Shown here one piece after another: positions 3,061 through 47,703 of a DNA stretch of 64,000 bases. Location: assembly GCA_031213475.1 (NCBI GenBank), contig JARUPZ010000008.1, positions 10,536,708-10,600,707 of the forward strand. The letters are read 5' to 3'. A program made the translations under genes and the position numbers. The DNA is from Nereocystis luetkeana. Taxonomy: Eukaryota > Sar > Phaeophyceae > Laminariales > Laminariaceae. Position 1 is the first letter of the stretch. Each line of letters starts with the position of its first letter. Below the pieces are notes generated by a model. It did no database searches, was not told where the DNA came from, and saw only the letters and a program-made list of their open reading frames with translations.

Positions 3061-3084
3061 CTGCTCTATCGCCCCGATGCCTTG

Positions 3085-10890: not shown

Positions 10891-10891
10891 A

Positions 10892-11179: not shown

Positions 11180-11185
11180 CGCAGA

Positions 11186-16086: not shown

Positions 16087-16268
16087 ATGTCAACCGAGTA
16101 CAGCAAGGTGTGCCATGCCGGGTTCTTCGCGGCCGGCTTGCAGCCCTGGGAGGACGTGCAGAGCGTCTTCAGGGTGGTCTGCACCCTGGTCACGGTCAGC
16201 ATCTTCTCCTCGTGGTTCAGCAGGCGGGGCATCGGAAGGCTAATGCTTCTCTTTCTCCACTGGGTTGG
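16087..16268 (+). CDS. Gene A exon 1
   Basis: MSTEYSKVCHAGFFAAGLQP..., then helix 1 (VFRVVCTLVTVSIFSSWF) and the start of helix 2 (GRLMLLFLHWVG). Donor GTGAGA at 16269, phase 2. From RVVCT onward, 28 of 33 residues match gene B. Upstream the paralogues fall out of frame with each other (gene B has four extra bases), so the N-terminus is the least certain part. Confidence 0.85.
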
Positions 16269-22200: not shown

Positions 22201-25200
22201 AGGATCACCTTGCACCCGTCCTGTATACGTTCGGCTCCAGCGTTGCAAATCGCACACGAACATCTTCCACCCCTCAGTCACGCAGTGGCCCTTCCATGCA
22301 ACCGTCACATTTTTTTTTGTGGTCAATTTTTCCCGCTGAAATCCCAAGGGGGTCAAGGCAGAACTCAACGCTTGAAATAGCGCCCTCTCCGAATAAGGGC
22401 CTGAAGGCATTGTTTAAGCCCAGCCTTCAAGACCGCGGCCTCACGTATGTGAGATACCTCTGGTACCTGGCGTATGTGAAGCATGTCGGAGGCATACACA
22501 TGTATATACCGAACATTTTTGTGGGCGCGTAGACTAGCTACAGACACCATTCGACGTCGGTCAACGAGGGGAAAAAGTGCTCAAGTTTATCTTCTCTTGA
22601 TCGGTATAAATGCTAGGGCACGCACCGTAGTGGGTACTTATTAATAGTGAAAGTTGCGACTACATTAAGAGGGAGGTTGATGGTATGGAAAAAAAGAAGG
22701 ACGGGAAAAAACACGAAAACGAACCCTGCAAACAGCCAGCCAGCAACAGATATCCATGTCTTCCTTCACGTAGAACGAGCAATGCATCCCCAGCAAGCAG
22801 TAGTAAAAAGGTGCGAGGTAGCCTCTCCTCTTGCATGCCTTAGATAGCCCGAATTATAGCGAGGGAGCGACCGACTTGTCACAAAAGCTCGGGAGGAGCT
22901 ACAGCAGCAGTATTGTACCTATCTATGTATCGACCCGCTATTAATAGATGATGCTGTACGTCCATGCTTACTTGTAACCACAGACGAGGACACTCATCAG
23001 CAGTAAGTTGGACTCCATATATGGCATGCTATTGCTACGACGGAAGATGATAGTGGTCAAGACCAAATTTGCCTCGTACCGTGGTAGAAATACTGGAATA
23101 CATCAGTTTTGGTGATCATGACGGGTCATGATTACCATACAGTAGTCCCCCACCACAAAATTTACCGTTACGGAGGAACATAGTAATCAGGATCAAATGT
23201 GGGTAGTAAAAAGTTGGAAGGAATGTATTCTTTTTTTTACAATATATTGGGCCCTGATTACCAGGATGTCCCCTAGTGATAAGTAAAAGGTACCGGTATC
23301 TGCCGGCATAACAAGTCTGCTGCACTCTAGAGTAGCTTCCGCCTCGTTCCAGAACTGCGGTGTGTACAATACTCGTGGTTGGGAGAACTCCGAGTTAAAT
23401 AAATGCTGTATTGAATAGTGTGCTTGCGAAACATCTGAAGCAATACGGTATACACGCATCGTCATCATTGAGATGGACTGGGTTCGGTCGATACCCAGCT
23501 TCTTTACGAGTGAAAACGCAACTGCCACCACACTGCTGTACACAACAATTCAATGCCGAACAAGCGCGCCCGACGTATATATATATATATATATATATGT
23601 ATATTTATATATCTATGTATAAGTCAACGTCCAAATTTGAGTATCAAGCACTCAAATGGTCGTTTCTTTTGCTCATGAATCTGGAATTAAACTATTCGTT
23701 GGTGCTGGACCGTATCCACAATTAACCTATTACGGGGAACCATAGTTAACAGGGCCTATGGTACACATAAAAACCTATATGTTTAACCATTTTTACTAAC
23801 AATATTTGGTCCTGTTAACTATGGCCCCCCGTAATAGCATGTATAACGCACCCGAAGCTGGCGTATCTGTGTGCAATACTATTATTACTGGGGAGTGCTG
23901 TAGTAAATAGGACCAAAAATTGTTGACAAAAAATAGCGAAACATACAGGTTTTTGTGTGCATCGTAGGTCCTGTTAACTATGGTCCCCCGTGATAGTTTA
24001 AAAATCTACATATTTTTTATGTTCTTTTGTTGTTCCGTTATATTGTTCTGGTTTTCAACGACAACAACAGCGGGCTCGTGCATCTGCTGTCGGGGATAGT
24101 GATGGCCGAGATGGTACTGGATTGCTGGGTTGGAGCGGAGCTTGTGACGTTCATCAAGGCCTTAAAGTTCTTGGAGCTGGCGGGGTCTAACCTGGTCGCG
24201 GTTACGAATCTGGCAATTTGCGCCAACCTCGCCCTCATCGTGCATGTGAGCATTAAACCATATATTTTGGTGTGTCTGGCACGTCGGAATATTTAGTGAT
24301 TGGTCTACTTCCGTCTCTGGTACCGGTACTATTGCCTACCCGGTACTTGTGGCATGCTATTGCTTCGAACTATGTGAGTCGGCAGGCTCAAGTTGAAGGA
24401 CGGATTTTGCTTACCCCCCCCCCGGCCAGAGTCGTTTTTCCGACCGGGACTCTTATGTGGCTCTTCTCTGAGTCCTCACGAACACCCCACCCAACGTTTG
24501 TTTTATCCTGAATTTCGTTTTTTTTTTAGAAATTTGAGCGTAGTTATTACCCCATTACATCAACTGTTATGAGCGGTTTTGGAGAGGCTCTTAAGAACTG
24601 GGTTGTTTTATCGAAAATGGGCGATTTACTCGACGGGACAGTCGAAAACGCCGGTAGGCTCCTCGAGATGCTCCCCTTAGCTTTCCGAGAGCTTCCTTGA
24701 GCACTTTCACGTTTTTCCAAACTCGCAGTTTGACTGTTTGTCCATAATATTGCCAGTTCTGAGGGCATCGTGATTTTTCAATTTTTCATCAAAAATCTTT
24801 ATGATCTCACATACAACCTTTTTTTTCACCCCCCAGAGAAAATCGATTGGCTGCTCCGAAAATCAAACTATGACTTTGGAGAAAAAGAAAACTCTCGGAT
24901 AACCCCGGAGAGCATTCTGAGGAATCTACTGGTGTCTGAGGCTGTTCCGCCCGGCAAAACGCGTTGATTCGGCCTGAAAACTCAGTTCCTGGGGCCCAGA
25001 AACATGTTCTTGTATTAAATAGTCTTACGCCACATATTGTCCGCGAACCAACTAAGCAAAGAAAGTGGGTCAGTCCTCGGGGAAGACATGAAGCACGTGT
25101 GAGCAAAATCTCAGCGTCCGTGGACATTACGATGTGTGTGCGGTATAAGTGCGCACATAGTAGTTTCAGTGTATATAGGATTGATTTTTGGCCTTATATT

Positions 25201-28200: not shown

Positions 28201-31200
28201 GTTATTGCAGAAACAACGGCGTCGTGTGGGCTTGGATCCTGTTCGGCGCGACGGCATGAAGGAAGATCGATAGTGGACAGGCGGAGGTATTGAGGATAAT
28301 TCCGTGCGCGGTATAGAATGCGCGTCAGGCAAAATCGATCTTACACGAGTCACAACGAACATACATGCTGATGATCGGTGGGCTCGAGAGCGGCTAGAAC
28401 TACTCCGGGAGTGGGTTTGAGGGTTGGATAGGCTGCCTCAAAACCGTCCTACACCAGAGCTTTTACCTGGCACGCGAAATTAACGATAGCGTGTACCTGG
28501 TACAGCTTAACTCCACTGGGCCAAATCGACCCCACCCACCACACAACGCACATACTTCCTGATGTTGGGCGAACTCGAAAAATGCGAGGGTTACTCTGGG
28601 GGGGCGAAACAACTAGTTGACGGGTTGCATCAAATACCGCGACCTGTACATGAACGTTTTGGGGCTTGCCACAACACAGCACCTGGCACATATTTCAGTA
28701 TCGATCACGTGCATCCTCTCCGCATGAAGTTTAGTCGCACTTAATCGAACTCCCTCCTGGTGATGCATTGACCAGAGGCTTGTTGTACAACGCTTTGCTG
28801 AAATTCTTTGAGGGACCGAGAACAGCGGCTGGCTACAACAATGATCCAGCAGCTTCCCCCCGTTAGAACGGTCAGAGCCAGGAGAAAGAGGAGGAGCACT
28901 GCCTTGATCCTCGATCCTAAGATGTCGCGTGGCGGACGTAAGCTGTGGTCGGTGCTGTTGTTGCTTCCAAAGGACCAAGACAGCGAAAGAAGCAGCGGAC
29001 AGTATGGATTGAATAACCGCTATATTTGGTTTCTCGAGCGCCACGAGATTAATTCTGGGCGTAAAGGACGATATGACCTACCGACCTGCTGACGGCAGCC
29101 TCGGACGGGGCCAAAATCACTGCAGTGAGGGGGGGACAACTGCTTTGATCCTCGGCGGTGGAAACTTTCATGTATTTCCCATCCCGTCTCTACGGTATAC
29201 TTCTTTTGTTTTTCACACCTCAGACAGCTAATCGATTCCCACGTCACGGTCCAGATAACTCATGGCAGGTCAATTCCCGGTCATGCATGATCCACTACAG
29301 CTCATATTGCCGGTTCGGACCCGTACAGTTTTCTCGATTTAAATCAGGTTCCTGTGTGGGGTCTATCTGCACTACGCAGATCCCGCGCAGTCTCTCCCAG
29401 CCGCAGCCGATCCACTGGAGATAGATAGATAGATCACGACATGTTTGTACCATATCATGGCCTGACCGAGGTGTGTACCTTAAGTACTTTTTTCTAGCTC
29501 CCTCTCTTCTCGTAACTTGAAGTCTAGGAGGTCTTTTGCCCAGCCTTTTCCCACGCTGATAGTCGGAGCGAAATAGGTCCGGCTTCTATAAGGTAGTTCT
29601 TACAACGTTCGGGCGTGGCGATATGCGCACGTCTCATCAGCATCGTCGTTGGCAGAGAGAAATTTTGCTAGCGCATGCATGCAAAACAGCACTACACCCC
29701 CCTCCTCGGCGCGGTATTTCATATATCAGACTCGAAACAAAAAAAAACGGCATCCTGGGAAGAAGCCATTGATATCAGTATCCGGCATCGGTATTTTGTC
29801 CCTGGTCCGGCCTTACGCTGCCCTTTCGTTTTTCTGAACCCAACGTGTGGCCATGTTTTTTTTTTTTGGTACCGGGTGTGGCAACAACCTTTGCGTCGTC
29901 GCGCTTTTGTTTTATACAGAGCCACCGCACGATGACGCGCATCAAGAGCCTGTCGTCTTTGCGTATGGTGCTCTTCTTCCTGACTTTGTCGGTGGGGAGC
30001 GCAGCATCGGCGGTGCCTTACTGGGAGCGGTGGCTGATGAGCGGCACGGCTTTTCACATGGGAGGAACCACGACGGTGAGATGGAGGGGGCAAGCTTCCG
30101 GTCTCCATGTGCACGAGGCGTGCCGACGGAGGGGTGATACGATTTAGATAATACCTGGAATCATCTGTTTTTGTGATAGACGGGGCTTCCTGACTGACTA
30201 ACTATCTGCACCCAACGTCGTGTGCGTGCTTTACATTACATTTTCGATGCAGCCCGAAGGCCATGGGGAGTTTTGTCATTGGGTGAACTTTACAGGTATA
30301 TTCTAACACGCCAGGGGTTTTGGTGGAGGCGTAGAGCTACTGCAGTAGCTATCTCTTCAAATCAGGAGGAATTATCGAAAACCTGCAGGTGCTCCAGCAG
30401 CGGCGTACATATCACGCTTTTACTGCACGCACTTCATTTAGGATCCTTTCCCGTATGCGGTTGAGCTCATCAACTCGTTGCACGTGCTGCGATGAGGGTG
30501 AATAGCATATTTTCGTTTCGGCTGAATCTTTTTCTGATTAACACGTGTTCCTTATAACCTTGGAGAAACTTTCCATCGTCACTGGGTGCGGTATTAATTC
30601 ATTTCCCGTACGACAATGTGGAGGGCGCTATTCACTCAGGATGAAAATGCTGGCACAATTTGTCGAATACCACCAGTCGTATCCAATCGATTATCCTCCC
30701 GTGCGAATATTCAATCGACTACGCACTACTACTGGTTGCTGCACCACCGTTTACCCAAACAGTACACGTTGATACCTGCTGCGATATTGGTTTTCTATTA
30801 ATAAAACAAAAAAGGAAAAATACCTACCGCACCTTAGGCCGAGGTTACGCTCGTGTTTATTCTTGTATGTAATGTACTATTTATGTAGAGTTTCCTGAGT
30901 GTAGGCCCTAAAAACATGTAGGTGGTGCTACCCGTATACCGCACGAGTGGCACATATATGTAACTCCTTTTTCAGGACCGTAGTCCCGTTTTGGGAAAAA
31001 ACTACTTGAAAAAATGAGTGGCTTTGTCCCCAAAACAGGACTGCAGCCCTAAGGGCATTCGTAACGCCCATCGAGAGGCGTTCTGGACCTTGCCGCGCTT
31101 GGTCACAGGGTAACTTCCCCTTCTTCTATCTCGACCCTGTCTGCTGTGTTATACGTGTGCTGCAGCAGACCAATCCGTAACCTGGAAGTAAGATCGATCT

Positions 31201-33092
31201 CGTTCTAGGTCTCCCATTGCCTATGCGCGCCGCAAGCAGAGTCGCGATCCTAGGGCATGCACGTGTAGTGCAGACAGCACTGCGTTTCGGACGCTTAAGA
31301 TGCAATGAGCCTGGGCTGGTTGGTGCTATGGCCGATGCTTTTCCTACAGGCATTGGCTTTTAGGCTCACTTTTAGAATAAGAATATACCTATGTAGTTGC
31401 CGGTAAAGGACATGAATATCGGCGCAACTAAAGCTTGAACATAATATGGTGTGTTATCTGCGTATAGAAAACCCACTGTAGTCAATAGCATGTCGAAGTA
31501 TACATTTTACTGCGATTTTCTCGTCTAGACGTAGCAGATCTGCCTTTGGTCAATACTACTACTGCTGATTATGGAATAACCTGGTCTTCAAAAGGGCCGA
31601 GAGTCTATACCTGTGGTTGGTGAATTTGGCCAGTTCGTATGCGCCCATCACCTATACAGGTATTGCCGTTTTGTCTCCGTAAGTGTATGCTATTGGTCGA
31701 AATTCAGTTACACATATAAATATATATTCAGAATGTGTCGAGCGTTTCATAGCCTGTATTATAGAGAAGAGACGGTACAAGTAGTCCCGTCACAGTTCAC
31801 GGCTCCGTGCAGATCTCTACGAAGCGGAGCACCACGTGTGCGCGTGTTGGAAAGGACTCAAGGTGCTCCAGTTTGTATATAGCCGCACTACTGTGTATCA
31901 CGTACGACAGAAGTAAAACGAACGCGCGTGCCTCTTGGTCACGGTCTCGCTTTGCGTCTCTATCCAGGCCACAAACGACTGGATTATCGTATCCTACTTT
32001 CTTTTGGAGGCGGTCGTCAGTGTTTTTATGACGATTATCGTCTTGCTGCTGCTGCTTTTCAGGCGGTCGGAGCTTCGCCAGGTGAGTACGAAACGAGCAT
32101 AACCGTGAACCAGATAGGGATGTTCAGAGCGGGAACGGCCCACCCCTCGAGAAGCTTTACGTAATACACCAGCTCAACTACTAATTGTTAGTAGGTCTAG
32201 GTAAGCTCTTACAAGCGTCGTCTTCAGATGCGTGTGTATGTGCGGTACGCAAGCGACAAGTGAGGCCAGGTGGTTCCTGGGTAAGCGTCATGATGCATGA
32301 TGTCCCGGAAGGGAGTAGTGGACACGGGACATGTTTCGCGATCATCACGGGCCAGTGACAGAGAGCTCCAGAGACAATGCAGGGAAGCTGTGGCTTTGTG
32401 ACAGAGCGCTTGTTGCAAGCGCTACCTTCGGAAGACATGACTGAGCGGTGTGGATTACGCAAACACTACGTACAATACCGTAGTTGGGCACATAGAGTCC
32501 TAGCTTTCGTTATGGATCATCGTTTTTCCCGCTTCGGGAAATAAATGTCTAATTGAGACACATACTCTAGTTACACACCTGGTACGTACATATCGGAAAT
32601 AAATAACACACTTGAAACGCTAGAAGCACACACCATTCTGTCCGGGAAGTTAAGGACCGCCTGTTTTGCAGGACTTGTTTGTCCGAAACGGTCCTTCCAT
32701 TTACTTTCCGGGCAAACAGGTACACGCTTTGAATACGCACGTGTAGCGCCTGACGCGAGGATGCCCGTACTCGCACAATCGTTTGCCCCCCGATGTGGGC
32801 CTCGCCAAAGGTGTGGAGACTCCACCGCCGAATCAAGTACCACGTCGCTCTCACCGTCATCGCCCTCCTGGTGAACCTAGCCATCACGGTTTCCGGCTTC
32901 TTGATCTTGTTCGACGGCGGCCCTTTCTGGCTCATCATCATATCCTGGATCCTGCGGTACGTGCACATCGCCCTCGACACGCTCGTGCTCTACAGCGCCC
33001 TCGAAACCCCCGTGTTTCACCTACCGGCGAACAGCAACTTCCAAGATAGTAACGGCAACAGCATCCATCCGCATAGCGTCCTGCGGTACTGA
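16087..33092 (+). CDS. Gene A: seven-transmembrane protein, five exons, 302 aa
   Basis: Exons 16087-16268, 24071-24245, 29920-30075, 31968-32081 and 32811-33092. The phases fit (2, 0, 0, 0) and the sum is 909 nt including TGA. The start is the ATG at 16087; an in-frame TAA lies shortly upstream. Hydrophobic segments are at about residues 27-45, 51-76, 98-118, 133-153, 176-202, 220-243 and 247-271, giving a seven-helix membrane protein. It has a short N-terminus containing LQPWEDV, a short basic loop before helix 6 (RRSELRQVWRLHRRIK) and a 30-residue polar tail. A cysteine in DCWVGAEL after helix 2 is kept in the paralogue. The family is not recognised. Topology resembles a G-protein-coupled receptor, but no family motif is seen, so receptor function is only a hypothesis. 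A second copy, gene B, follows 4 kb downstream. Introns total about 16 kb and are full of repeats. Confidence 0.85.
16782..16881. mobile_element. Family-2 fold-back element
   Basis: CAGTCCCGTTTTGGGGACAA ... TTGTCCCCAAAACCGGACTG arms. A TACCAGGTG motif directly abuts its right end. Confidence 0.75.
17132..17240. repeat. Family-3 repeat, inverted pair
   Basis: An inverted 'GTACTCACAGCTGACGTGCG' at 17132-17154 is followed, after a T17 run, by a direct copy ending 'GTTGATACTCAACTTTGCAA' near 17235. The family core is ACGTCAGCTGTGAGTTCGAC ... TACTCAACTTTGCAAGC. Confidence 0.7.
17539..17767 (+). repeat. Family-3 repeats, three tandem copies
   Basis: Copies at about 17539-17590, 17613-17668 and 17681-17767 each begin (ACGT)CAGCTGTGAGTTC and end TACTCAACTTT(GCAA). 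The third contains a TACCTGGTA at 17737. The halves are imperfectly complementary (GAGTTCGAC / GTTGATACTC), giving a short fold-back. Confidence 0.75.
18036..18390 (+). mobile_element. tRNA-derived SINE
   Basis: The head has a Pol III A-box-like stretch (GGTTCAAGTGGTTAACC, about 18051-18067) and a perfect B box inside a T-arm (CTGGGTTCGAGCCCCAG, stem 5 bp, loop 7). The body contains 'GAGAAGAGCCTGCTATGTGA', 'CCCCGGATCTGAGTTACGAG' and 'GAAGATGTGCGAAGATAATG', and the tail is A-rich (AAAAATAAAAAAAACAATGG). An inverted copy of the body lies at 61245-61380. The cloverleaf is imperfect in the acceptor and anticodon stems, so this is a SINE head and not a working tRNA. Confidence 0.78.
18450..18545 (+). 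repeat. Dispersed repeat shared with 7030-7145
   Basis: Near-identical to the copy at 7 kb; here it follows the SINE tail and a (TA)n stretch and runs into (AAC)n. Confidence 0.75.
18680..19385. repeat. Degenerate satellite of CCTATCG/ATAGG motifs
   Basis: Units of about 50-60 bp with 'CAATACCTATCGATGCCTAT' and 'AATAGGATAGG' recur with drift over 700 bp. CCTAT and ATAGG alternate, so the array has many small inverted repeats. Confidence 0.8.
19881..19986 (+). mobile_element. Family-1 fold-back element (diverged)
   Basis: Starts ATTACGGGGGACCATAGTAA and ends TACTGTAATCCCCCGCAA. Confidence 0.8.
20402..20498. mobile_element. Family-2 fold-back element
   Basis: Near-perfect arms from AACCCCTTTAGAACCGCAGT to GGACTGCGGTCCTAAAAGGG. 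Confidence 0.88.
20605..20624. repeat. C20 homopolymer tract
   Basis: Twenty consecutive C, followed by a pyrimidine-rich 250 bp. Confidence 0.9.
21285..21316 (-). repeat. Family-4 repeat fragment with C16 tract
   Basis: CATGCATGATTATGAGTA followed by 16 C is the reverse complement of the poly(G)-headed start of the family-4 repeat seen at 53-62 kb. Confidence 0.6.
21513..21618 (+). mobile_element. Family-1 fold-back element
   Basis: ATTACGGGGGACCATATTAA ... ACTATGGCCCCCCGTAAT. Confidence 0.85.
22013..22104. mobile_element. Family-2 fold-back element
   Basis: TTAACCCTTTTAGGGCTGCA ... CGGGACTGCAGTTCTAAAAG; the left arm is mutated. Confidence 0.8.
23034..23277 (+). mobile_element. Two diverged family-1-related elements in tandem
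   Basis: Elements at about 23034-23150 and 23168-23277 have ACGGAGGAACATAGTAATCA / GGGCCCTGATTACCAGGATG style ends. They keep the plan of family 1 with a shifted consensus (CAGGACCAAA / GGTCCTGATTA). They form a related subfamily. Confidence 0.55.
23729..23835 (+). mobile_element. Family-1 fold-back element
   Basis: ATTACGGGGAACCATAGTTA ... AACTATGGCCCCCCGTAAT. Confidence 0.87.
23884..23994 (-). mobile_element. Family-1 fold-back element, inverted orientation
   Basis: The core reads in the opposite sense (AGGACCAAAAATTGTTGACA first, GGTCCTGTTAACTATGGTCC last). It lies 48 bp from the preceding copy. Confidence 0.8.
24071..24245 (+). CDS. Gene A exon 2
   Basis: Acceptor ACAACAG, donor GTGAGC. 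One base completes the split Gly codon, then GLVHLLSGIVMAEMVLDCWVG ... LAGSNLVAVTNLAICANLALIVH. It is 175 nt, exactly as in gene B, with about 81% of residues identical. Confidence 0.92.
25526..25632 (+). mobile_element. Family-1 fold-back element
   Basis: ATTTACGGGGGATCATAGTT ... AACTATGGCCCCCCGTAAT. Confidence 0.85.
25688..25794 (+). mobile_element. Family-1 fold-back element
   Basis: ATTACCGGGGACCATAGTTA ... ACTATGGTCCCCCGTAAT, 55 bp after the previous copy and in the same orientation. Confidence 0.87.
25920..26830. repeat. Region rich in CACGGGATTCC-type motifs
   Basis: Variants of GGGATYCCRYGGGA, CACGGGANCCC and their complements occur every 15-40 bp (for example CGCGGGATGACCTGGCATCC, CACGGGATCCCGAGGATTCC). 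This gives a degenerate, self-complementary satellite. The frames in it are not coding-like. Confidence 0.6.
26973..26991. repeat. C19 tract
   Basis: Uninterrupted cytosine tract within gene A intron 2. Confidence 0.9.
29920..30075 (+). CDS. Gene A exon 3
   Basis: Acceptor TTTATACAG, donor GTGAGA; 156 nt, phase 0 at both ends. Encodes SHRTMTRIKSLSSLRMVLFFLTLS (helix 4) and a loop with YWERW. The loop is the most divergent part between the paralogues. Confidence 0.9.
30076..31967 (+). other. Gene A intron 3 (1.9 kb)
   Basis: GTGAGA...TCCAG. Contains one family-2 element (30960-31056). Nothing else recognisable. Confidence 0.7.
30960..31056. mobile_element. Family-2 fold-back element
   Basis: ACTCCTTTTTCAGGACCGTA ... 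GGACTGCAGCCCTAAGGGCA. Confidence 0.78.
31968..32081 (+). CDS. Gene A exon 4
   Basis: Acceptor TATCCAG, donor GTGAGT; 114 nt. Encodes helix 5 (WIIVSYFLLEAVVSVFMTII and LLLLLF), then RRSELRQ. The last residues match gene B's RRSELRE. Confidence 0.9.
32082..32810 (+). other. Gene A intron 4 (0.7 kb)
   Basis: GTGAGT...CAAAG. No repeats of the named families, and no other gene seen. Confidence 0.7.
32811..33092 (+). CDS. Gene A exon 5 (last)
   Basis: Acceptor GCCAAAG. Begins VWRLHRRIKYHVALTVIALL (helix 6), then GGPFWLIIISWILRYVHIAL and DTLVLYSALETPVFHL (helix 7), with a polar tail ending LRY and TGA at 33090. About 80% identity to gene B through PVFHL; the tails differ. Confidence 0.92.
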   Translation: MWRLHRRIKYHVALTVIALLVNLAITVSGFLILFDGGPFWLIIISWILRYVHIALDTLVLYSALETPVFHLPANSNFQDSNGNSIHPHSVLRY

Positions 33093-35361: not shown

Positions 35362-35459
35362 TTAACCCCTTTAGAACCGCAGTCCCGTTTTGGGGACAAA
35401 CTACTTGAAATTTGAGTAGTTTGCCCCCACAAGTGGGACTGCGGTTCTAAAGGAGTTAA
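35362..35459. mobile_element. Family-2 fold-back element
   Basis: AACCCCTTTAGAACCGCAGT ... GGGACTGCGGTTCTAAAGGA. Confidence 0.88.
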
Positions 35460-36654
35460 TTTAAGCTTATGTATCAGCTTACTATAATTTCGAGTGGTTT
35501 TTAAGGTATTAATAGCGAGTAACATCGGATACTTGAGACAAATCGATAGTCTTTCACGTGCGTGCAGTCTCGTTTTTCTGCGTGCCTGTCGAGTATTCTT
35601 GATAATGTTTACGGATAATAATAACACCTGCTTTTGTTTCACGGCGTCAGCGCTTCTGACGAGCCCCCGTCACTATAGCCACGGGGGGGGGCAGGGGGGA
35701 CGGAGGAGGGGGGGGGCTTACGGGCGCTGTCGGTAGCTTGCGGTCACGAGAGTTGTTTTTTGATAAAACGGTCGCATCTACCACCGGCCGTACATCGTTT
35801 GTCCTTGGCCCCTTGCGTTTGAAAACAACAAGCTGCGCTCAACGCTGCATAATATATACCGGTACGATATACATTATCGTGGATACCGTCGGTAGTTGTC
35901 GGCAACGAAACAAATCATGGATTCAACGGTCCCCTCTCCCCCAAGGTGACTACGTACTCGTTTGTGTGTGTTTTTTTCGTAGTGCACAGCAGAGGTGTCT
36001 GCCCCCTTGCCAGCAGCAGAGAGAGAAGCTAACACTACCCCATCACCCCCTTCCTTGTTTCTTGACTGACTGCTTGGTGGACCTAGAAAAAAACGAGCCG
36101 CGCCAGACCAGGTCGGTTACGAATACGCCGTGTGTATGCTTGCCAGGGGAGCAAAGCCTGCCACTCACTCACTGTCTCCCAGCCCCTGCCATCGCGTACT
36201 CCTCGACCTTCCCTGTTGTCAGAGAACGAGCCGCGCCACCGCTCGCAGCAAACAGCAACCAGCTACAGCAGTAGCTGTGCACTCCGTCCGTAGTTAGTTT
36301 TGGTTTCCGAGAATCACGAACCTAGCTGGAAAAAAAGTGGAAAAGTTCACTTCGTTTTGAGGTAACAGGCTGTTTTTTGTTGCCTGCCCGCCCCCCCGCC
36401 CCCTGCTTGTCATCATCCTGCTGCCTTCTTGGGTCCCACGTCGACCTGACCCTTGATCCCGGTCGGACCTCAGCCCTCAAAGACCTCTGGACTGAGCCTG
36501 GATACAGAAGATTGATTGCACTCGCAGGGATGAGGGCGGAGCGACCATGGTCCGCCACAGCAGCCGCGGCAATCGTGACAGCAGCAGCAGCAGTATAACG
36601 ACAGCACCGCTAGGTACAGTAGCAGCACCTTTTTTTATAAAATGATTAATATAA

Positions 36655-36725
36655 TACCAGGTATACGTCAGCTGTGAGTTCGACTGATTACATACGAGCT
36701 CGTAGTTGATACTCAACTTTGCAGC
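36655..36725 (+). repeat. Family-3 repeat with adjacent TACCAGGTA
   Basis: TACCAGGTA directly precedes TACGTCAGCTGTGAGTTCGA; the repeat ends TACTCAACTTTGCAGC. The sister copy at 41111 has no 9-mer at this place. Confidence 0.75.
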
Positions 36726-37255
36726 ACCTTTGTAAACATATCATGCGGTCATGTTCGGAATTATAGGTACAGCAGCAGCTAGCTGCAGTAACACCAATCA
36801 AAATAAAATCCCTACATACGTACGAGGACTGTAAAAAATCGATATATATATGCACAGGAGTATGCGTGCTTTTATGTGTAAAATTTTAGATTTTTAAATG
36901 CGCACAATCTGATTGTGATTTGATTCTTGTCCCAAGAGTTCTGCCGGACGTTCGCTGCGGTCCTTCTGCCCATGTTCTGTCCACACGCCCACATAACGAC
37001 ACACAAAGCACCCTGGAACTTACGATGGGCCAGCGCCCATCAAGCGTGGGCTGAGTGTGAGAGTAAAGCTGCCCTTGCAGCCCACTGAGAGGTATCGCGG
37101 CAAACCCGTGGCGCGCCTCTACGCTCGTGCACGCTTCGCGCGTGTTCGAGTGTTAGCTGAAGGCACACACACGAAAATAATCGGCGTAGTGTACTCGTAC
37201 GAGCACTTGCAGCGGGGGCAGTAGTCGTATTCATATATCGCTTTCATTGGATCTC

Positions 37256-37461
37256 ATGGGGCAGCAGCTAGCTCGCGAAGTGCCGATTGAGTACGAGAAG
37301 GCATGTCGGACTGGCTTCATCCACGCCGACTTGCCGCCCTGGGAGTGTATCCTGAGCGTCTTCAGGGTGGTTTGCACCGTGGTCACGGTCAGCATCGTCT
37401 CTTCGTGGTACAGCCGGGGGGGCATCGGAAGGCTGATGCTTCTCTTCCTCCACTGGCTCGG
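37256..37461 (+). CDS. Gene B exon 1
   Basis: Helix 1 (VFRVVCTVVTVSIVSSWY) and GRLMLLFLHWLG. Donor GTGAGG at 37462, phase 2. A CTG array and overlapping TACCAGGTACCTGGTA follow in the intron. Confidence 0.87.
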
Positions 37462-37700
37462 GTGAGGTTTGTGCATGCCGGCTTTCTACAGCAGTAGTAC
37501 GATACCAGGTACCTGGTAGTAGACTGAGACTACTTCTGTGCTGCTGCTGTGCTTCTTCTGCTGTGTTGCTGCTTCTACCGCTGTTTTAATGCTGATGGCC
37601 CTGCAAAAAAAGCAGAGTGTTGTGGTCTGGGCGCGTGTCGGCTAGTTTTACAAACGCTGCTGCTATAGCTATGCTGCTGCTGCTGCTGCCGTCGCCGTTA

Positions 37701-37792
<92 letters not shown>

Positions 37793-40700
37793 ATACCGCC
37801 GTTTGCTTTACGTGTAAAAATGATGCAAGAAGTGTGGCGGAGATTTAGATTTCCGGCGGGCGGCTACTTTGCTTGGCTACTACTCCTACTACTGCTGTAT
37901 TTTACAGTATTTATTTGTTTTATTTACCGTTTCGAATTTCTTTTTTGTGTTGTTGTTTGTGTGTTATCTCACCGGCTCCACCAGCTAACGACTACCTGGG
38001 TACCAGTGATATTCGATGTGCTCCAAGTGCGACACTGCTGCAGACCCCTACCTACTGCACTGCAACAGTATAATATTACTTGTACTTGATCTCCTGCTGG
38101 ATTTAGCATGACATGCACTACTACTGACCTACAGAATCAAGCGGAGCGAGCCGACAAAAGCGCGTGTAGGACCAGCTTTCAAAATATTTGGTGGAAACTC
38201 CCACTTATTCGAATAGATAGATAACTGCCGGCCCGCGAGTTACTACTGGATTTGGCTATTATTGTCAGGTGTATGCACTGCACTGCTGTACAGCATGTAT
38301 GCTGTACGCCGCAGGAAACAAATAAATGGCAAAAGGGCCCGAACATCGCGTGGAGATGCACACACCTCGTTAAACTTACAGTCAGTCAGCGCATACACAC
38401 CTCGTATAAAATCTGACTGTGTGACAGCCACGATGTATGTATGTGCTGTTGACAGGCGGACGCCCTGCGGAGTATTGTGCGGGGATAGAAAGACGGAACC
38501 CTTACGTACGAGTAGGGGGTGTTGTATGAGCGCAGGAGTCTATCTATCCTCTCTCGTCACGCTCGCACACGCTACGTGCCCCGACCTGGTGCTTCTCTCC
38601 CCGCTTACGTGTTTAGTACTGCACCCTACAGAACAATTTTCCTGACCTCCTCACTACCCTGGTTCTGCCGTGCACTTCTGTACTTCGATAAGCACCCTGG
38701 TTGCTGGTACGGTACTGTACACAGTAGTAGTAGTAGTCTATCAGGTACCGCTGTCGCCTACATACAGTAGTCTATCTCTCGTCTCCTAAGCGGCGTAACC
38801 TGTATCTACGCACCGGGCACATTCCGGGGGGGATTACTGTAGTAGTATGGTAATGTGTTCCCAAGTAAGTGTTCACACGCAAATAAATAGTTGGTACGCC
38901 AGGGTACGCCAGCTTCGAGTTCGGTTGGTCGATGTCAACCCTTCTAGAACCGCAGTCCCGTTTTGGGGACAAACTAGTCAAATTTCGAGTAGTTTGTCCC
39001 CAAAACGGGACTGCGGTCCTAAAAGCTTGGCAACAACAGCGGCATGACATTATTGCAGTACCGTCGGTTGTCGCGCACGTCCTTTAGTCGTGCATTCCTC
39101 GTCAAGGATATACCATCATCAGGCCAGGGCAGGCGACTCAATTGTGTACTATCTGGTACCTCTGTTGTTAACATTTCTTCAGAATCTGTGCTGCTTGTTT
39201 TTTACGTCAAGTATGTACGACTTGAAACATCCTTGGACACGAAACTTCCATGTTGTTTTTGGGAAACGCTCACCGACTGCTGTGTGAGCAGAGTAACGTT
39301 AGAAACGCCCGACTTGAACATTTAAAGCATTCTTTTATTTTCGAGTATATATATCGAAACGTGGTGTCGTTTCATATTAATAGCGTTTTTACTCGGAAGT
39401 CTGCTTATTATCGCTAGGGCTTGCCAAGTTACGTAACGAAAACCGCGCGAGGGGCCGCTGATTTTTTGGCGCCGCCAAAAAAAGCAGAAGCTATTACGGC
39501 GGACCATAGTTAATACCTGGTAGGACCAAATATTGTTAGTAGAAATAAATGGTCAAATGTATAGGTTTTTATGTAAACCACAGGTAGGTCCTATTATCTA
39601 TGGTCATTGTAAAAAAGTACTCGCTCGTAATCATTCTACATTTTATTTATTTGTTTAACTTTTCGATGTACCTCCCTTTACACACTAATTAATTCCAATA
39701 AATAAACTTGTCCCCAAGATGGAAGAAGGCCGATCTTGAAGGGGTCGATACGCCGTTTTGAGACGAGGCAAAAAGCGTGTGTCTGCCACCTGTCACGTTT
39801 GTTTCCGTTCTTCTTCCGTTTGTCACTTACTTGTTGTCCCTGTGTGTTGGGTGGGAAAAAAAATGATAAAAACGCGCCTACACACGGTTATTACTTGCAT
39901 GCAACACACAGCAGCAGCACGCAGTCTGCAGACCTACTTTTAACCCTTTTAGGACTGCAGTCCCGTTTTGGGGGCAAATTACTTCAAATTTGAATGGATT
40001 GTCCCCAAAACGGGACTGCGGTTCTAAATTAATATTATACTGTTCTTTGCTAATAATATTAAATACGTCCTTTAAAAAAACAAACAAAAAAAACATGTAT
40101 ACTATGTACACGTACGTGTGATGACCCTTGACAGTTGAATTAGTTCGATGTTTGAACAGTTGGAACAACTTTCGTACTTACTTTTGATCGTTCCGATATT
40201 CTTCTGATTTTAAATAATTAAAAAACTATATTCTTCTGATTTCCAACAAATTAAAATAAAAAAACAGCGGAGTCGTGCATCTGCTGTCTGGGATAGTGCT
40301 GGCGCAGCTGGTGCTCAATTGCTGGGTTGGCGAGGAGCTTCTCAACCTCATCAAGGCCATCAAGTTCTTGGAGCTAGCGGGGTCCAACCTGGTAGCGGTT
40401 ACGAATCTGGCAATCTGTGCCAACCTCGGCCTCATCGTGCATGTGAGTTTTCTTCTCTCTCCATGATATTTCTTGAAGACCAAGCGCTCGTCATCACGTT
40501 TGTTTCCGCCTGCCTGTTGGTGCGACTGCTGCAGCTGGAGGTACGTACTATAAAAAAAAAAAACAGGCAGGTCCTCCTGTAGACCACTGGTACGAGTACG
40601 AACATGGAGCACCTATAATATGATGCGTAAAGTATACCGATATCAGGTATCGCAGGTACATCGTAAGAGTTATCGTAGAGGCCCGAAGTCACCCGAATCA

Positions 40701-43700
40701 ACCCGCCACTCCGAAACAGAATAATACCGGGGCTGCAGGTTTTCTTCCGTGTATTCTCCTATTTTTTACTATGTACCTGGTATTAATTATACAGCAGTAC
40801 AGGCAATGGGAGAGCCCTCCACCTGAAAGGGGGAGCATATATATGGAGAGTGGCGCGGCGAACACGTTATACAGACGCCACCTCACCCCGGCTGTCCTTC
40901 GCGGACAGCTGGTACTGAATACCCTGTGGTACCTATTAAATTTAGTAGGAACACACTACTATTAACAATAATAGTCACCGCGGACATGGTCAAATACTTC
41001 TGTGGGGCAAACGAAACAACACAAACGGGATCCTGGCCCAGACTGGAATAGGTTTTGGTAAAATGGGCGCGTGGGTCTGTTGGCTCTATTTTTTTAATAA
41101 AATGATGAAATACGTCAGCTGTGAGTTCGACTGATTACAGAGTTGATACTCAACTTTGCAAGCTGCGTAATGTGCTCTATTTTATAATCCATGGGGAGTC
41201 ACCGGCCAGGAGTCCATCGCTAGGGAAATAATGGAAAACGCGCGGACGGTTCACGCAGCTTGCAAAAGTTGAGTATCGATCGATCTGCCGATCGGTTGAA
41301 CTCACAGCAGACGTACTCTTTTAGTTTTTGAATAAAAATGAAAATATGAAATACGTCAGCTTTGAGTTCGACTGATTGAATAATAGTCGAGTTGCTATTT
41401 GGAGTTTCAAAAACATCGCGTTATTACGAGTTGAGCCCATGCGGCGGGAAAGCATGAAAATGTATGCCTGGTTCAAATACAAGTACTCTGCGTGGTCTAC
41501 TATTAATAAGTAGCCGACTACAGTACTCTATGTTCGTTACACCCTGGTGCAATGGATGGATGCTCCTTTACACAAAAAGGCAGTGGGCGGTCATGAAAAC
41601 AAAATGACAAAGCACGTATAGGGAACGGAAGAATTTCGATACCTTAGGATCTCTCCTGCGATCCGGCCTCGAAGGGCAGCTATGACCATGACTAACTGTA
41701 AAAACCCCAAGAATCAACGGACACCCGGGGAACGGTACTGCACGATGAACTGCGGGAGTACGGTTTCTCTAAGCTTAAAATTGGGGTCAGGGCAGAACCT
41801 GGCAGATCGTACCTGGTGCCTGGTATGAGGGAGCTCGCGTGAATCTGCCGAGCACAGCCCTTGCTTTCGGCCGCACAGCGATCTGCAGGACTTCCAAGCA
41901 CAACAACCGCACACCACATAAGAAGATGAGAAGGCCTCTGGTTGGGGTTAGGGATGGGGCTAGGGCTGGAGTCGCGGGTCAAGGTGGTCAATGCCGTCAG
42001 CGGAAACTGATACCACCATCTTACTATATATCGCTGTCAGGGAATGCACCCCGCATACACATCCTCTCGCGGCCACATCCTACCTCGTTGAAGCATTGGA
42101 ACAGTAAAGTAAGCGAATAAACAAGTAGGCAGGAGGTCTGCGGGGCAGGTCTGCCGGGGTTGGGTATGAGCGGTCGAGGTCGAGGTATCACAGGAGGCGC
42201 ACCGCAAACGACGCCGTTAGGAAGCGAGTACAAAACTTGAAGCCTCCCGCACAACGTCACAAACACGAGTTAGTTGCGATATACATATATATATCATATA
42301 TATATATATTGTCGGTATATACGGAGCTTTCTCAATCTCGATGATTACATGTACTGCATCTGCATCCATCCAGACCGTTCCCACGGAGAAACTTGTCACC
42401 AACTAACTGTTCGCCGCAACCCCGACTTGCCCCCCCTTCGCCCACGAGCCCACAACGTGTGAGGTTCGAGCAGCGTAGGGAATAAACAGGTGCCTTATAA
42501 CCCACCAGGTATGCTGATCTCCAGCATCTGCCTCCACCTCCCCCCCTCCTCCGCGCGCAGGATTTCATGCCAGCCTGAAGCATACCAAGGCGCCCTCTAC
42601 ACTAGTATATATACTAAAAAGATATCTCTTGTCCGGACCGCTTTTGAGGAATACGCAGCCCTCGACCGCACATTGGGGCCTGAGAACCCCCCCCCCCCCC
42701 CTCATCGCATTTTCCCGCAGAATCACCGCACGGTGTCGCGCTACAAAGGCATGTCGCCCTTCCGAATGGTGTTCTGCTTCCTCGCCATATCCATGGGGAC
42801 CGCCGCAGCGCCGATGCCGTTCTGGGACTTGTGGACACTAACTTCAACGACGTTTCATCCGAGAGGATTGACGTTGGTGAGATATTTTTGGGTGGGTCAT
42901 TTTGCGAGCCTCAACGTGTACGAGCAGGGTACGTAGCAGTGAGTGTTTTGTACAGAACCCCTATGTGCCATCGGCCGCCCAAAGCATGACAGGCAAGGCA
43001 TGAGAGCGCGAAGCTGATTTATTGGCACTGCGTACGGGTGTAGGGGATGATTCCAACCTGCTCCCGCTTTGCAGAACCCCTTGCATTTGGATTGCCTTAG
43101 GCCGTTGGATTCGTCACCCTTTTGCACAGTGGGCCGGGGCTGCTTTCAGCGGCCGACGTTTCTGTGCTCGTGGTATGTTTCGTCCGTCGGATTGTTGAAT
43201 CTTTACCATAGGACCAGAGGTACCTCCCTACCTCCCGGCATACATTTCCTGGACGAGTATGCAGATTCTCCTGGAAATTGAAACCACAGCAAGCCGTGCT
43301 GTGTTTGATTTACGACTGCAATGCTCCGGCCTGAACCCGACCGATCTGTGCTTGATTTCCGAAACTGGTGCGTCTCGTCGGGGGGCCCTTTTCGAGATTG
43401 GACGGTTCATAAAAGCGTCCTTGCTGGAGTGCACCACCAGTCTTATCGAACATGGAAGGTGCGCTTCGACGCTTTGTTACCATATAAACGTACCTTGTGC
43501 TCGCGATCAGACTGGTACGTTAAGGCCACTGTCTCTCGCTATATGAACAGTTTCTACATACAGTAGTATTTATTTATATGCACTCACTACAGTTAAGAAG
43601 GGCAAATGGTTGTTTCGTACGTTGGTATTACGGGGGACCATAGTATATACCGGTAGGACCTACGGTACACACGAAAACCTATAAATTTACCCATTGTTAA

Positions 43701-46700
43701 TAACAATGTGAAGTCCTATTTACCGACTGTGGCCCCCCGCAATAGTATAAATAGGCGATTTCGCAGAAGACGGGGCAGAGCCATGGACGGCCATCGATCA
43801 CCTGTTAGAACTACGACACATTCATGTGCTGCTAGTCAGAAGGGAAAGCACGTATCATGCCCACCTCACCAACACAATATGACATGTAAAGTACAGATAT
43901 AGTCCTGGTATCGCCTATGGTTTCACCCGTCACGAGTCCATACACGATGCGTCTGCATGCATAAAATTGAATAGTGTCGCACGATATTGCGGGCCAGCTT
44001 TCAATCGTGACAGTTGTAGGTCGAGCAAGAAGCGCAAAAAAACGTGTATTATAATTCACGTGTGGCTGAATCGTCTCTTTATGGGCGGGCGGGGGGATCG
44101 GGAAGGGGGGGGGGGGTGTACTTATTTTCATGCATGGCCGTAGTCTTACGACCGTAGACAGGGGGCGGTGGAGGGGGGCGGGGGGCGTATGCCGAAGCGC
44201 TCATCGATTGTTCTTCATTTTTTTTTCATATGTCGCTCCGTTTGTTCGTTCGCTAGTCCGTGCGTCCGTCCGCGCCACTTCGGGTCTGCGTGTCGAACGT
44301 AGGCCCATCCGAACGTATACACTATGAGCGTACCCCGACTGCAAGATCTTTATATTGCTGGTGGCAGATCTCGGTATAGTACCCTGCGTGTCGTGCACTG
44401 AATGAAGCGGCCCGCTCCTGAGGATGGGTTTTTTTCAAGCCCGTTTCACGTTAACCTGCTGCTGTAGGCAGGCGTTGTGCAATGCGGGATGCGGGAGTGG
44501 CCTCACTTACTTGTAGACAGCCCAGAAAATTTTCTAGAACATTCGAGTTTGGTCGGGCCACTGTATGTTTTGTCTTGCGCGTACTACTGTACACACATGC
44601 TCCGTGCTGGAACCAGGTGTGGGCTATATAGTTGCCTCGCACCAGCCTGCCCTCTGCTTCTGCACTACTTGAGTAGAAAAGGCCGAACGCACGCGCCCTC
44701 CTGAGAGTGCGGCGCACGCTTTTTGTTTCGTCCGCTGGGCTCTTTTTTGTAGGTCCGTCGTTTCCTCATACCGGTGTACGTATCACATCGCCTCCCCGAA
44801 ACAAACGTTTAAATGCGCTGCTGTAGTCACACGTCACTCATAGTTTTTCGGGGTAACGCAGTTAATAGGACGAAATATGGTAGCGAACAGTACCGTAGTA
44901 TATAGGTCTTAGTGTGTAGGATAGGTCCTGATTACTACAGCCTCCCACTTTAAAGAATGAATCTTACCGGGGTAACACAGAAAGGAGGACTAATGACGCT
45001 TCGAAAAACTCCTGGAATAATATATGGGGGGGGGGGTTGTATATTGGGTCCTGATGTCCTGATCACTATGGTACCCCACTACCAATACAAAGAATGACCA
45101 TCGCTTTGGAACATCGTAATCAGCACCAACTGTGCTTGGGGTCATTCTTATCGAAGAAGAGTGTTTTTTCCCGTAACGCCGACATTTTCTTCGCGCTATT
45201 TTTCAATCTTCCATATTTTTATTTTGAAAACAAATCCCAAATATATAATATATATATATGTGAAATCTGGAAAACACGCTCTCCGATAAGAGTGAGCCTT
45301 GGTAAAAGTACTGGAATAACATATATGTATATATATGGGGTTTTGTGTATACGAGCGGTCCTGAGTACTATGGTACAACGCCCCAAAGTGTAACTACTAC
45401 GGACGAGCACAGCATATAGGACCAAATATGCCCAGTAAAAGTGCTGAAATATATGTACATATATATATGGGGTTTTTGTGTACATGACGGGTCCTGAATA
45501 CTATGATACCCCGTAGAATAAGGAGGTGTGTATCCTACGGTTGAACCACGGATCTCGTTTTAGCTCCACTCGTTTATGACGAGCCGAAAACGCGCGAACA
45601 GAGTCGACAGAGACGTGACCCGGCACAGGGGACACACCGGTTCACCGCACACGTTGTTTCAGGCTGCTCATCCGCCGAAGGGCACGAGGCAAACCTGCGG
45701 GCCTCCTCAGTAGACCTATCGTATGCAGGGATCTCAAGCCCCAATGCTTGCTCGACCCTTTTAAGGCTGCTGTCCCGTCCTGGGGACTAACCCCTCGCGT
45801 TATGTGAGTAGGTTGTCCCCAGGGAGCTGGAATGGAGTCCTAAAAAGTTGAATATGACTACACATTCTTACATGTCCATGTACCAGGTGTATTTGAATCG
45901 ACACCGTAGACTGTGCCGACGTGAGAGAGGCTCAGAGTCCGACCCTACCCCTCTCAAAATCATTTAAAACACTAAAGCAATGGCCTTTTCCTGCTGAAGA
46001 ACATGACGTGGTATTATTGCCGATGGGATGCCGATACCGTTTTTTTTTACCATCTATCTCACGATGATGACAGCAATAATTACGCGCCCATTGTTTTTAT
46101 CGCTCTTTTGCATCACCCCTATTGTCAGCCTCGAGGCAGGTGGGTTTCCATAGCCTTCTTCGTTCTGGAGGCAAGCGCCGGGTTTACGATGGGGATCATC
46201 GTCGTGCTGCTGCTGCTATATAGGCGGTCGGAACTTCGCGAGGTACGTATATATATACAACCGAATCAAATACTTTCGTGCATTTTTTCTGTTTTTAGGC
46301 CAGAGTCAACGGTTCGCACGTAATATATACGTATGTATGTGAATGTGAGGGCAGAGAGCCTCGGGGAGGCTCGATAATAATAGGTCTTTGGAATGGGCAA
46401 CCACTTTTACCCCCTCACAGCATGAGTCCCACCAGATCATCTGATACTGATACTCGATCTGTGATTCCTGAAGAGCTACACGAATTTGGAGTGGTTACCG
46501 CTTAACCGGTTATTATCCGGTTATCGTTCATCCGGTCATCGGTTGTCGGGCATCCGAGTATCGGTTATCGGTTATTTTATTATCAAGTATATCTCTTATC
46601 CGGTAGTCGGATTACGCTCATCACACCGATGCCAGTGTGGAGCAAGCCCTTTTTTTTTGCAGGTATTATGTTTTTGACTGGGTCAGCTCCGATTTCTTCA

Positions 46701-47703
46701 TTTATTTCGAGGGCCTGTACATACTTATTCTTCGGATGGTCTATTACGGGGGACCATAGTTAACAGGACCTATGGTACACATAAAAACCTATATGTTTGA
46801 CCATTTTTACTATCAATATTTGGTCCTGTTAACTATGGCCCCCCGTAGTAGCTGATGTACCTGCAGTGCGTCTGTAGGGGGATGGGAACGGAATTTTCTG
46901 CGACCTTCGGTATGGCATGAGGCTTGCCACAATAGAAAAACAATACTTTAATATATCACAGTTTTCTGTAAGGGTGTGTGTGTTCATGGCTAGCTCGATA
47001 AGTGTTTGTAGGCATGTGCGGCACACAATCTGTTCTCTATACTCTACACACAGGACGCGTTCTACGATAGAGGTAGCACATTTTAGCTAAAGGTTTTCTG
47101 AATGGCAGGGCTCCTTAACCCGAATTCGTCGGAATGCCATCCTTGTTCCGAAAACTGACGTTTCAGTACACTTGGGCCATGGGATTTTTCATCGGGGCGC
47201 AATTAATTTCATTTTTATTTATAGTATATTTTCGGGCGAGGTGGGGAGAACCTCAAAACAAATTGGGGTGAACCTCTATCGTAGAACGCCTCTCAGATAA
47301 CTGCTATTAGTAGTAGGTGCATACTACGGTGCACGTGCCAGGAATACACACCCGATACACATACATACCTTACGCGCGCGAGCCCGCGGTAAAACCTTCC
47401 TGTTGCTGCGCCTCTTCCTCCTTCAAGGTGTGGAATCTTCACCGTCGAATCAAGTGCCACGTCGCCCTTACCACCATCGCCCTCCTGGGGAACGTCCTCA
47501 TCACGGTCGCCGGCACCCTCATCGTGGTCAACGGGGGCCCCTTCTGGCTCATCAGCGTCTCCTGGATCCTGCGCTACGTGCACATTGCCCTCGACACGCT
47601 CGTGCTCTACATCGCGTTGGAAACCCCCGTGTTCCACCTCGAGAGTGACTGCCAAGATAGCGGGGGCGTCGACGTCCCCGCGGAGGTCAGCCTGCGATGT
47701 TGA
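37256..47703 (+). CDS. Gene B: seven-transmembrane paralogue, five exons, 308 aa
   Basis: Exons 37256-37461, 40268-40442, 42721-42876, 46129-46242 and 47428-47703. The phases (2, 0, 0, 0) are the same as gene A and the sum is 927 nt including TGA. The start is the ATG at 37256 (MGQQLAREVPIEYEK...), the first ATG in frame. Seven hydrophobic segments fall at the same places as in gene A. The helix-rich exons 1, 2 and 5 are 80-85% identical to gene A where they align. The exon 3 extracytoplasmic-type loop (FWDLWTLTSTTFHPRG) and the C-terminal tail (ESDCQDSGGVDVPAEVSLRC) diverge. That pattern, with no stop or frameshift, suggests two functional duplicates under selection. The family is not recognised; a receptor-like role is inference from topology. 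Introns are again repeat-rich but different in content from gene A. Confidence 0.86.
37702..37792 (+). repeat. (CTG)n microsatellite, about 30 units
   Basis: Uninterrupted CTG/TGC repeat of about 91 bp. It gives a poly-leucine frame that is not a gene. Confidence 0.95.
38936..39028. mobile_element. Family-2 fold-back element
   Basis: CAACCCTTCTAGAACCGCAG ... CGGGACTGCGGTCCTAAAAG; long, nearly perfect arms. Confidence 0.88.
39493..39613 (-). mobile_element. Family-1 element, inverted, with 9-mer insertion
   Basis: Reads CATAGTTAATACCTGGTAGGACC where the sisters read CATAGTTAATAGGACC. The extra bases form TACCTGGTA at 39514-39522. The right arm is mutated. Confidence 0.85.
39941..40028. mobile_element. 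Family-2 fold-back element
   Basis: TAACCCTTTTAGGACTGCAG ... ACGGGACTGCGGTTCTAAAT. Confidence 0.86.
40268..40442 (+). CDS. Gene B exon 2
   Basis: 175 nt; GVVHLLSGIVLAQLVLNCWV ... NLVAVTNLAICANLGLIVH. Donor GTGAGT. The acceptor ends AAAATAAAAAAACAG, lacking a pyrimidine tract, yet the boundary is the same as in gene A. Confidence 0.92.
41111..41400. repeat. Family-3 repeats: direct, inverted, partial
   Basis: Direct copy 41111-41168 (ACGTCAGCTGTGAGTTCGAC ... CTCAACTTTGCAAGCTG); inverted copy 41262-41326 (GCAAAAGTTGAGTATCGATC ... GAACTCACAGCAGACGTACT), closely matching the 17613 copy in reverse; partial direct copy 41352-41400. Confidence 0.75.
42687..42701. repeat. C15 tract upstream of exon 3B
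   Basis: Ends 19 bases before the exon 3B acceptor AG. Confidence 0.9.
42721..42876 (+). CDS. Gene B exon 3
   Basis: 156 nt; NHRTVSRYKGMSPFRMVFCF then LAISMGTAAAPMPFWDLW. The acceptor CATTTTCCCGCAG lies just after a C15 run that may act as its pyrimidine tract. Donor GTGAGA. Confidence 0.9.
43627..43743 (+). mobile_element. Family-1 fold-back element
   Basis: ATTACGGGGGACCATAGTAT ... GTGGCCCCCCGCAAT. A TACCGGTA stands at the position equivalent to the TA altered in the 39514 copy. Confidence 0.83.
44846..45515. mobile_element. Cluster of degenerate family-1-related elements
   Basis: At least four decayed units (44846-44955, 44964-45082, about 45099-45391, 45397-45515) share GGACCAAATATG and GGTCCTGA.TACTATG..ACCCC ends with TATATA-rich centres. 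They resemble the subfamily at 23.03-23.28 kb. Confidence 0.55.
45753..45851. mobile_element. Family-2 fold-back element, diverged
   Basis: GACCCTTTTAAGGCTGCTGT ... GGAATGGAGTCCTAAAAAG. Confidence 0.65.
46129..46242 (+). CDS. Gene B exon 4
   Basis: 114 nt; WVSIAFFVLEASAGFTMGII then VVLLLLYRRSELRE. Acceptor ATTGTCAG, donor GTACGT. Confidence 0.9.
46495..46620. repeat. Short TTATCCGGT/TTATCGGT repeats
   Basis: Variants of GGTTATCCGGTTATCGGTCATC repeat with about 10-12 bp spacing. Confidence 0.7.
46743..46849 (+). mobile_element. Family-1 fold-back element
   Basis: ATTACGGGGGACCATAGTTA ... AACTATGGCCCCCCGTAGT. Confidence 0.88.
47428..47703 (+). CDS. Gene B exon 5 (last)
   Basis: Acceptor CTCCTTCAAG. 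VWNLHRRIKCHVALTTIALL, then PFWLISVSWILRYVHIAL and DTLVLYIALETPVFHL; tail ends SLRC with TGA at 47701. Confidence 0.92.
   Translation: MWNLHRRIKCHVALTTIALLGNVLITVAGTLIVVNGGPFWLISVSWILRYVHIALDTLVLYIALETPVFHLESDCQDSGGVDVPAEVSLRC

Follow-up and report, generated by a model that had tools for sequence, protein, structure and literature searches.

A family of predicted seven-helix, receptor-like membrane proteins in the brown alga Nereocystis luetkeana

The window analysed here, a stretch of 64,000 nucleotides of the Nereocystis luetkeana genome (GCA_031213475.1, contig JARUPZ010000008.1), carries two five-exon genes, A and B, from a family that numbers eight loci or more. Judged from their sequences, it is somewhat more probable than otherwise that the encoded proteins are seven-helix receptors working like G-protein-coupled receptors (GPCRs). 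The best reading is a lineage-restricted GPCR-like receptor family, in which the part running from the fourth predicted transmembrane helix (TM4) through the following loop to TM5 is the most variable among A, B and a third member, C. Brown algae, whose complex multicellularity arose separately from that of animals and plants, possess heterotrimeric G proteins, and to our knowledge the receptors that feed these G proteins are poorly known. The present family is bounded, with eight or more loci of which six have been mapped exactly exon by exon, and with its invariant residues and its variable module it supplies direct receptor candidates.

Gene structure and extent of the family

Gene A (16087-33092, plus strand) encodes 302 amino acids and gene B (37256-47703, plus strand) encodes 308, each from five exons (Table 1). 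The ten exons lie where the preliminary description of this DNA had placed them, in the same order and on the same strand, with exons 2 to 4 equal in length between the two genes, matching splice phases (2,0,0,0 in each) and spliced frames whose only stop is the terminal one. As the exons of A and B were located by similarity, their equal lengths are no independent proof of the models; independent support comes from the splice sites, the codon signal and the paralogs. All eight introns carry GT-AG ends, the donor of A exon 1 being GTGAGA in phase 2. The two other forward frames of the joined exons are interrupted by 13 and 5 stops in A and by 9 and 5 in B, and the GC content at codon positions 1/2/3 is 0.53/0.40/0.81 in A and 0.58/0.42/0.80 in B, with 0.45-0.51 in the introns. 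Sensitive blastn between the two loci yielded five exon blocks which overrun the exon edges by at most 18 nt; the remaining matches were dispersed repeats, low-complexity stretches and a few short weak matches (E 0.007-0.3), apart from one self-match where the two query regions overlap.

Table 1. Exons of genes A and B in the window and exon plans of the modelled paralogs elsewhere in the genome
Feature	Location	Strand	Content	A/B blastn block
A exon 1	16087..16268	+	start ATG; predicted outer N-terminus with the conserved Cys9; TM1; first part of TM2	16069-16273
A exon 2	24071..24245	+	175 nt; second part of TM2, outer loop 1 (carrying CW) and TM3	24063-24250
A exon 3	29920..30075	+	156 nt; inner loop 2 with HRTM..K, then TM4 and the greater part of outer loop 2	29917-30026
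A exon 4	31968..32081	+	114 nt; last part of outer loop 2, then TM5, which carries the invariant Glu185	31990-32083
A exon 5	32811..33092	+	basic inner loop 3, TM6, TM7 (R258, H261, D265), C-terminal tail, stop	32808-33022
B exon 1	37256..37461	+	N-terminus, TM1, start of TM2	
B exon 2	40268..40442	+	175 nt	
B exon 3	42721..42876	+	156 nt	
B exon 4	46129..46242	+	114 nt	
B exon 5	47428..47703	+	includes stop	47425-47639
C	contig C9	-	exons 182, 175, 156, 114, 276 nt; 300 aa	
D	contig C16		exons 128+69, 175, 156, 114, 345 nt; 328 aa	
E	contig C16, ~45 kb beyond D	same as D	exons 200, 175, 156, 117, 369 nt; 338 aa	
F	contig C3		exons 212, 175, 159, 230, 274 nt; 349 aa	

B has its ATG 24 nt before the position that aligns with the start codon of A, and the N-termini of E and F are similar in length to that of B. 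A search for a common 5' exon upstream of exon 1 in A and B returned nothing above shuffled sequences (best real score 32; ten shuffles 25-33), and as C, E and F likewise start in exon 1, such an extra exon is not needed. The introns measure 7802, 5674, 1892 and 729 nt in A and 2806, 2278, 3252 and 1185 nt in B, and mostly exceed the mean lengths of 1,057 bp for Saccharina and 703 bp for Ectocarpus given in passages of PMC4421812. The family illustrates how short exons set far apart can escape single-exon searches.

What had been described as a pair proved to be part of a larger set. Searches of the 465-Mb genome (1987 contigs) with proteins A, E and G, whose match counts are lower bounds, gave at least eight loci, A to H. 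Protein A produced at least 26 exon matches and protein E at least 31; among the E matches listed, all but one fell in A to F or in a copy on contig C446, which is 100% identical to the opening 7,675 bases of the E stretch and was excluded from the gene count. The lone extra match led to a diverged locus, G, on contig C1 with five collinear exon matches, and protein G (at least 15 matches) in turn reached H, about 60 kb from G on the same strand. The exon plan of A and B recurs unchanged or almost unchanged in C, D, E and F. Exon 1 of D is divided by an additional intron (C16 7690436-7691516), and F has exon 4 joined to the start of exon 5, without intron 4, and a different intron before TM7 (C3 ~3409.9-3411.1 kb); these two plans represent intron gain or loss inside a small family. 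G and H retain HW or HY in TM2, CW, KF.EL and R/K.VH...DT, the TM7 pattern R-x-VH-x3-DT being preserved even in the diverged G. G and H, traced short of their last junctions, are scored as loci and not as modelled genes, and either could be a pseudogene. Scans with two peptide patterns each confirmed no relatives in viral contigs or in prokaryote genome contigs.

Predicted topology and comparison with known seven-helix classes

Hydropathy averaged over the family shows exactly seven windows (24-42, 54-72, 102-120, 135-153, 183-201, 225-243 and 251-269 in A numbering). B alone also gives seven and A alone eight, the extra one (76-94) being weak (1.23) and unfavourable on the octanol scale; the helix count comes from simple hydropathy. 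When loops 1, 3 and 5 are taken as inner and the N-terminus with loops 2, 4 and 6 as outer, the inner/outer counts of Lys plus Arg are 12/4 in A, 10/7 in B, 10/6 in C, 10/6 in E and 11/6 in F, and 6/5 in D counted without exon 1. An N-terminus outside and a C-terminus inside are therefore predicted for all six proteins, weakly for D and B. The C-terminus extends 27-64 residues beyond TM7 in the six modelled proteins. Exon 2, folded alone with a two-row alignment, was modelled as one long helix with a mean pLDDT of 71, a result that does not bear on the helix bundle.

The six complete proteins A to F have 64 invariant residues in common. Eleven of these that are polar or charged lie inside the helix ranges, and eight of the eleven are six or more residues away from either end of the range. 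Notable invariant polar residues within helices are H58 and H65 (TM2), N107 and N113 (TM3), E185 (TM5) and R258, H261 and D265 (TM7). C9 and C79 are notable among the other invariant positions; each is predicted to lie outside, and an outer Cys9-Cys79 disulfide is likely. The inner face carries conserved basic stretches, H.T....K in the loop after TM3 and R..E.......H.RI before TM6. Conservation clusters on one face of TM6 (p 0.003) and nearly so in TM5 (p 0.051); clustering was not significant in the other five helices. Taken as a whole, the anatomy appears to fit a receptor best, with seven helices in the N-out orientation, a short N-terminus, basic inner loops and a variable module on the presumed ligand side, and the polar core may be likened to the TM2-TM3-TM7 core of known GPCRs.

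Much of this evidence would also be expected of a seven-helix transporter or enzyme. If the proteins were a lineage-specific transporter or channel, the invariant His, Asn, Glu, Arg and Asp residues would line a substrate or proton path and TM4-TM5 would tune the substrate, a reading which draws on the several invariant charged or polar residues inside helices and on receptor families having returned no match. We consider it unlikely, though worth retaining, because neither SWEET nor PQ-loop proteins, which are seven-helix transporters with Pfam models, are among the Pfam matches, and because the short N-terminus and strongly basic inner loop 3 suit a receptor at least equally.

The Pfam search of the six proteins (D lacking exon 1) at E up to 10 matched five families, none over the cut-off and none a GPCR family by name, the best sub-threshold matches being CLLAC (E 0.0089 in D) and DUF1182 (E 0.026 in C). 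NCBIfam and PHROGs gave nothing better than E 0.19, and PDB chains searched by sequence gave no match. As HMMER run with family alignments of two or six rows may overlook distant relatives, the family is an orphan at this sensitivity, which is not to say that homology is absent. Class A GPCRs are marked by E/DRY at the inner end of TM3, NPxxY in TM7 and a Cys pair between TM3 and outer loop 2. The family has neither DRY nor NPxxY, and outer loop 2 contains no Cys in either A or B; the place of DRY is taken by an SHRTM-type sequence (SHHTM in D, NHRTV in B, SHRTI in C) and that of NPxxY by D265-T-x-V-L-Y270. The Dictyostelium cAMP-receptor family PF05462 was not among the Pfam matches of the six proteins, and over the whole genome it gave none, the controls giving no signal either. 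Microbial rhodopsins carry their retinal lysine within TM7, and no Lys occurs between W255 and L273 in any of the six proteins.

The spacing of the invariant residues in TM2 and TM7 also recalls the CREST hydrolases, whose TM7 signature is HxxxH. In a CREST-like intramembrane metal enzyme of the alkaline ceramidase or adiponectin-receptor type, a metal would sit between H58/H65 of TM2, seven residues apart, and H261/D265 of TM7, four apart, all invariant in the six proteins. It is an improbable identity for the family, as all six have HxxxD, with Asp and not His four residues after H261, and as the ceramidase and HlyIII-type families, both represented in Pfam, are not among the matches.

In the open-access literature, a body mostly without subscription journals and preprints, no title or abstract start among the matches listed describes a brown-algal family of this kind. 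The family is probably present in published brown-algal annotations under uninformative names.

Divergence of A and B and the selection acting on them

A and B are identical at 195 of 298 aligned residues (65%), with 42/61, 47/58, 23/52, 19/38 and 64/91 residues in common in exons 1 to 5. The per-exon dN/dS check proposed in the preliminary description gave 0.42, 0.28, 0.66, 1.00 and 0.56 (Nei-Gojobori; overall 0.55), hence ratios that are not near 1 across all exons; exon 4 stands at 1.003 unrounded and no other ratio exceeds 1. Purifying selection acts on the two genes overall (Fisher test of synonymous versus nonsynonymous changes with rounded counts, p 2.8e-4), and the description of A and B as real duplicates of a seven-helix, receptor-like type is supported. 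By the same test, constraint on single exons was significant for exon 1 (p 0.019) and exon 2 (p 0.003) and fell short of significance for exon 3 (p 0.24), exon 4 (p 1.0) and exon 5 (p 0.065).

The membrane segments had been put at about 80% identity. With helix limits set by the analyst, this holds for TM1, TM2, TM3 and TM7 (84, 86, 96 and 88%), less well for TM6 (64%) and not for TM4 (50%) and TM5 (46%); outer loop 2 stands at 33%. The divergence extends over TM4, outer loop 2 and TM5, a whole variable module in place of the single loop proposed earlier, and exons 3 and 4 together evolve faster than the rest at nonsynonymous sites (p 1.2e-5) with no significant difference at synonymous sites (p 0.36; counts rounded). 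The dN/dS of TM4-loop-TM5 and of the rest is 0.80 and 0.40 for A/B, 0.58 and 0.25 for A/C, 0.57 and 0.30 for B/C, 0.44 and 0.26 for E/F and 0.48 and 0.40 for A/E. D/E provides a counterexample, with 0.24 against 0.27 (D without exon 1), so faster evolution of this module is not general across the family. The faster exons 3 and 4 of A and B may reflect either relaxed or diversifying selection.

Another reading is that A and B include at least one decaying copy, whose fast exons 3 and 4 would mark loss of function after duplication and not a new specificity. The ratio of 1.00 in exon 4, the overall value for A/B beside those for A/C (0.35) and B/C (0.38), and the want of significant constraint in exons 3, 4 and 5 taken individually all point that way. 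Even so, decay seems very unlikely to us, since the frames are intact across five exons, the splice sites are intact, GC at third positions is near 0.80 in both genes and exon 2 is held at 0.28.

The duplication had been called recent, which is not supported by a synonymous distance of 0.44 between A and B nor by the trees. Synonymous distances alone (B/C 0.66, A/C 0.74) suggest a grouping of A with B, whereas all four unrooted iqtree trees join B to C, which lies on another contig, with support of 96 (codons), 88 (third positions), 89 (first plus second positions) and 97 (protein). The same trees, into which D entered without exon 1, set D, E and F apart with support of 100, 69, 100 and 100. 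The conflict between distances and trees would fit either a slowly evolving A branch or gene conversion acting on A and B.

G-protein context, a proposed receptor model and other elements of the window

The genome contains sequences of the signalling partners that a GPCR-like receptor would use. G-alpha gave 14 exon matches at four places, five over the cut-off, against 1/14 and none over the cut-off in the controls, and RGS gave one match over the cut-off. Passages of PMC3879662 describe the expression of six G-alpha paralogs in Ectocarpus gametes, together with putative GPCRs, of which three are male-specific and three partial ones are raised in females.

If the receptor reading is right, an external cue would bind the outer half of the helix bundle, presumably at the plasma membrane, in a pocket formed by TM4, outer loop 2 and TM5, which is the most divergent part among A, B and C. 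The signal would then cross the invariant polar core (H58/H65, N107/N113, E185 and R258/H261/D265) to the conserved basic inner face, which would receive it and engage heterotrimeric G proteins. Going further, we suggest tentatively, and at somewhat less than even chance, that these proteins form an uncatalogued brown-algal receptor class which signals via G proteins and whose copies are diverging in their TM4-loop-TM5 ligand module. They would in that case be concrete candidates for the chemical senses of brown algae, for instance for gamete pheromones or cell-wall oligosaccharide cues, for which we know of no receptors. Should they be transporters or enzymes instead, their value would be that of a new orphan membrane family.

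Among known systems, class A and cAMP-receptor-like GPCRs resemble the family in having seven predicted helices, an N-out/C-in orientation by charge, a short N-terminus, basic inner loops and polar residues in TM2, TM3 and TM7, in a host with G-alpha and RGS sequences; they differ in that the family has no detected sequence homology to them and lacks DRY, NPxxY and the loop-2 Cys. The gamete GPCRs of Ectocarpus, such as Esi0104_0023, are likewise brown-algal receptor candidates beside six G-alpha paralogs, some being male-specific or male-raised, a likeness drawn from their description (passages of PMC3879662). The GPCR-bigrams of oomycetes and other protists, for example GPCR-PIPK, are seven-helix receptors in stramenopiles (passages of PMC5784254); unlike them, the family has no kinase or other large added domain. 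The same passages leave their presence in brown algae open because few genomes had been sequenced (PMC5784254). Choanoflagellate families such as GPRch3, found only after wide protist surveys, offer a precedent by description (passages of PMC12716839).

Besides, the EsV-1-7 repeat (PF19114) was abundant in the genome: 150 of 1718 candidates were scored and all 150 were over the cut-off, with 0/14 in the controls, the counts being of repeat units, several per gene, and not of genes. Many of these repeats lie on many contigs in open frames of 400-1700 codons. The EsV-1-7 family is expanded in brown algae and patchy in other eukaryotes and viruses, according to passages of PMC7457493. Its abundance here suggests a brown-algal genome.

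The window holds no Rfam or tRNA match. Retroelement remains occupy 2674-5012 (plus strand), with an integrase-like frame recognised by eye, a weak integrase zinc-binding match (E 0.23) and, in the frame that follows, a PTM/DIR17-type Tudor match (E 4e-5) below the cut-off; the integrase frame had no match in viral contigs. A reverse transcriptase, of LINE type by eye, lies in broken frames at 9872-11194 (minus strand), with RVT_1 at E 6e-14 in 10552-10989. A palindromic MITE-like element of about 110 bp with ends CTATTACGGGGGACCATAGTTAA occurs at 46740-46852 and at 14 other near-full places in the window, also in introns of A and B, and, by eye, beside exon 3 of G. Another palindrome, about 100 bp long, has TTAACCC-like ends and may be of piggyBac type; it lies at 38932-39032 and at eight other places, starting near 11958, 16799, 20401, 22011, 30970, 35364, 39942 and 45752. 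A tandem repeat array with a spacing of mostly 43 nt is found at 18681-19115, and two further arrays, at 5139-5663 and 8740-9170, consist of repeats which are open in frame as judged by eye from the list of open reading frames.
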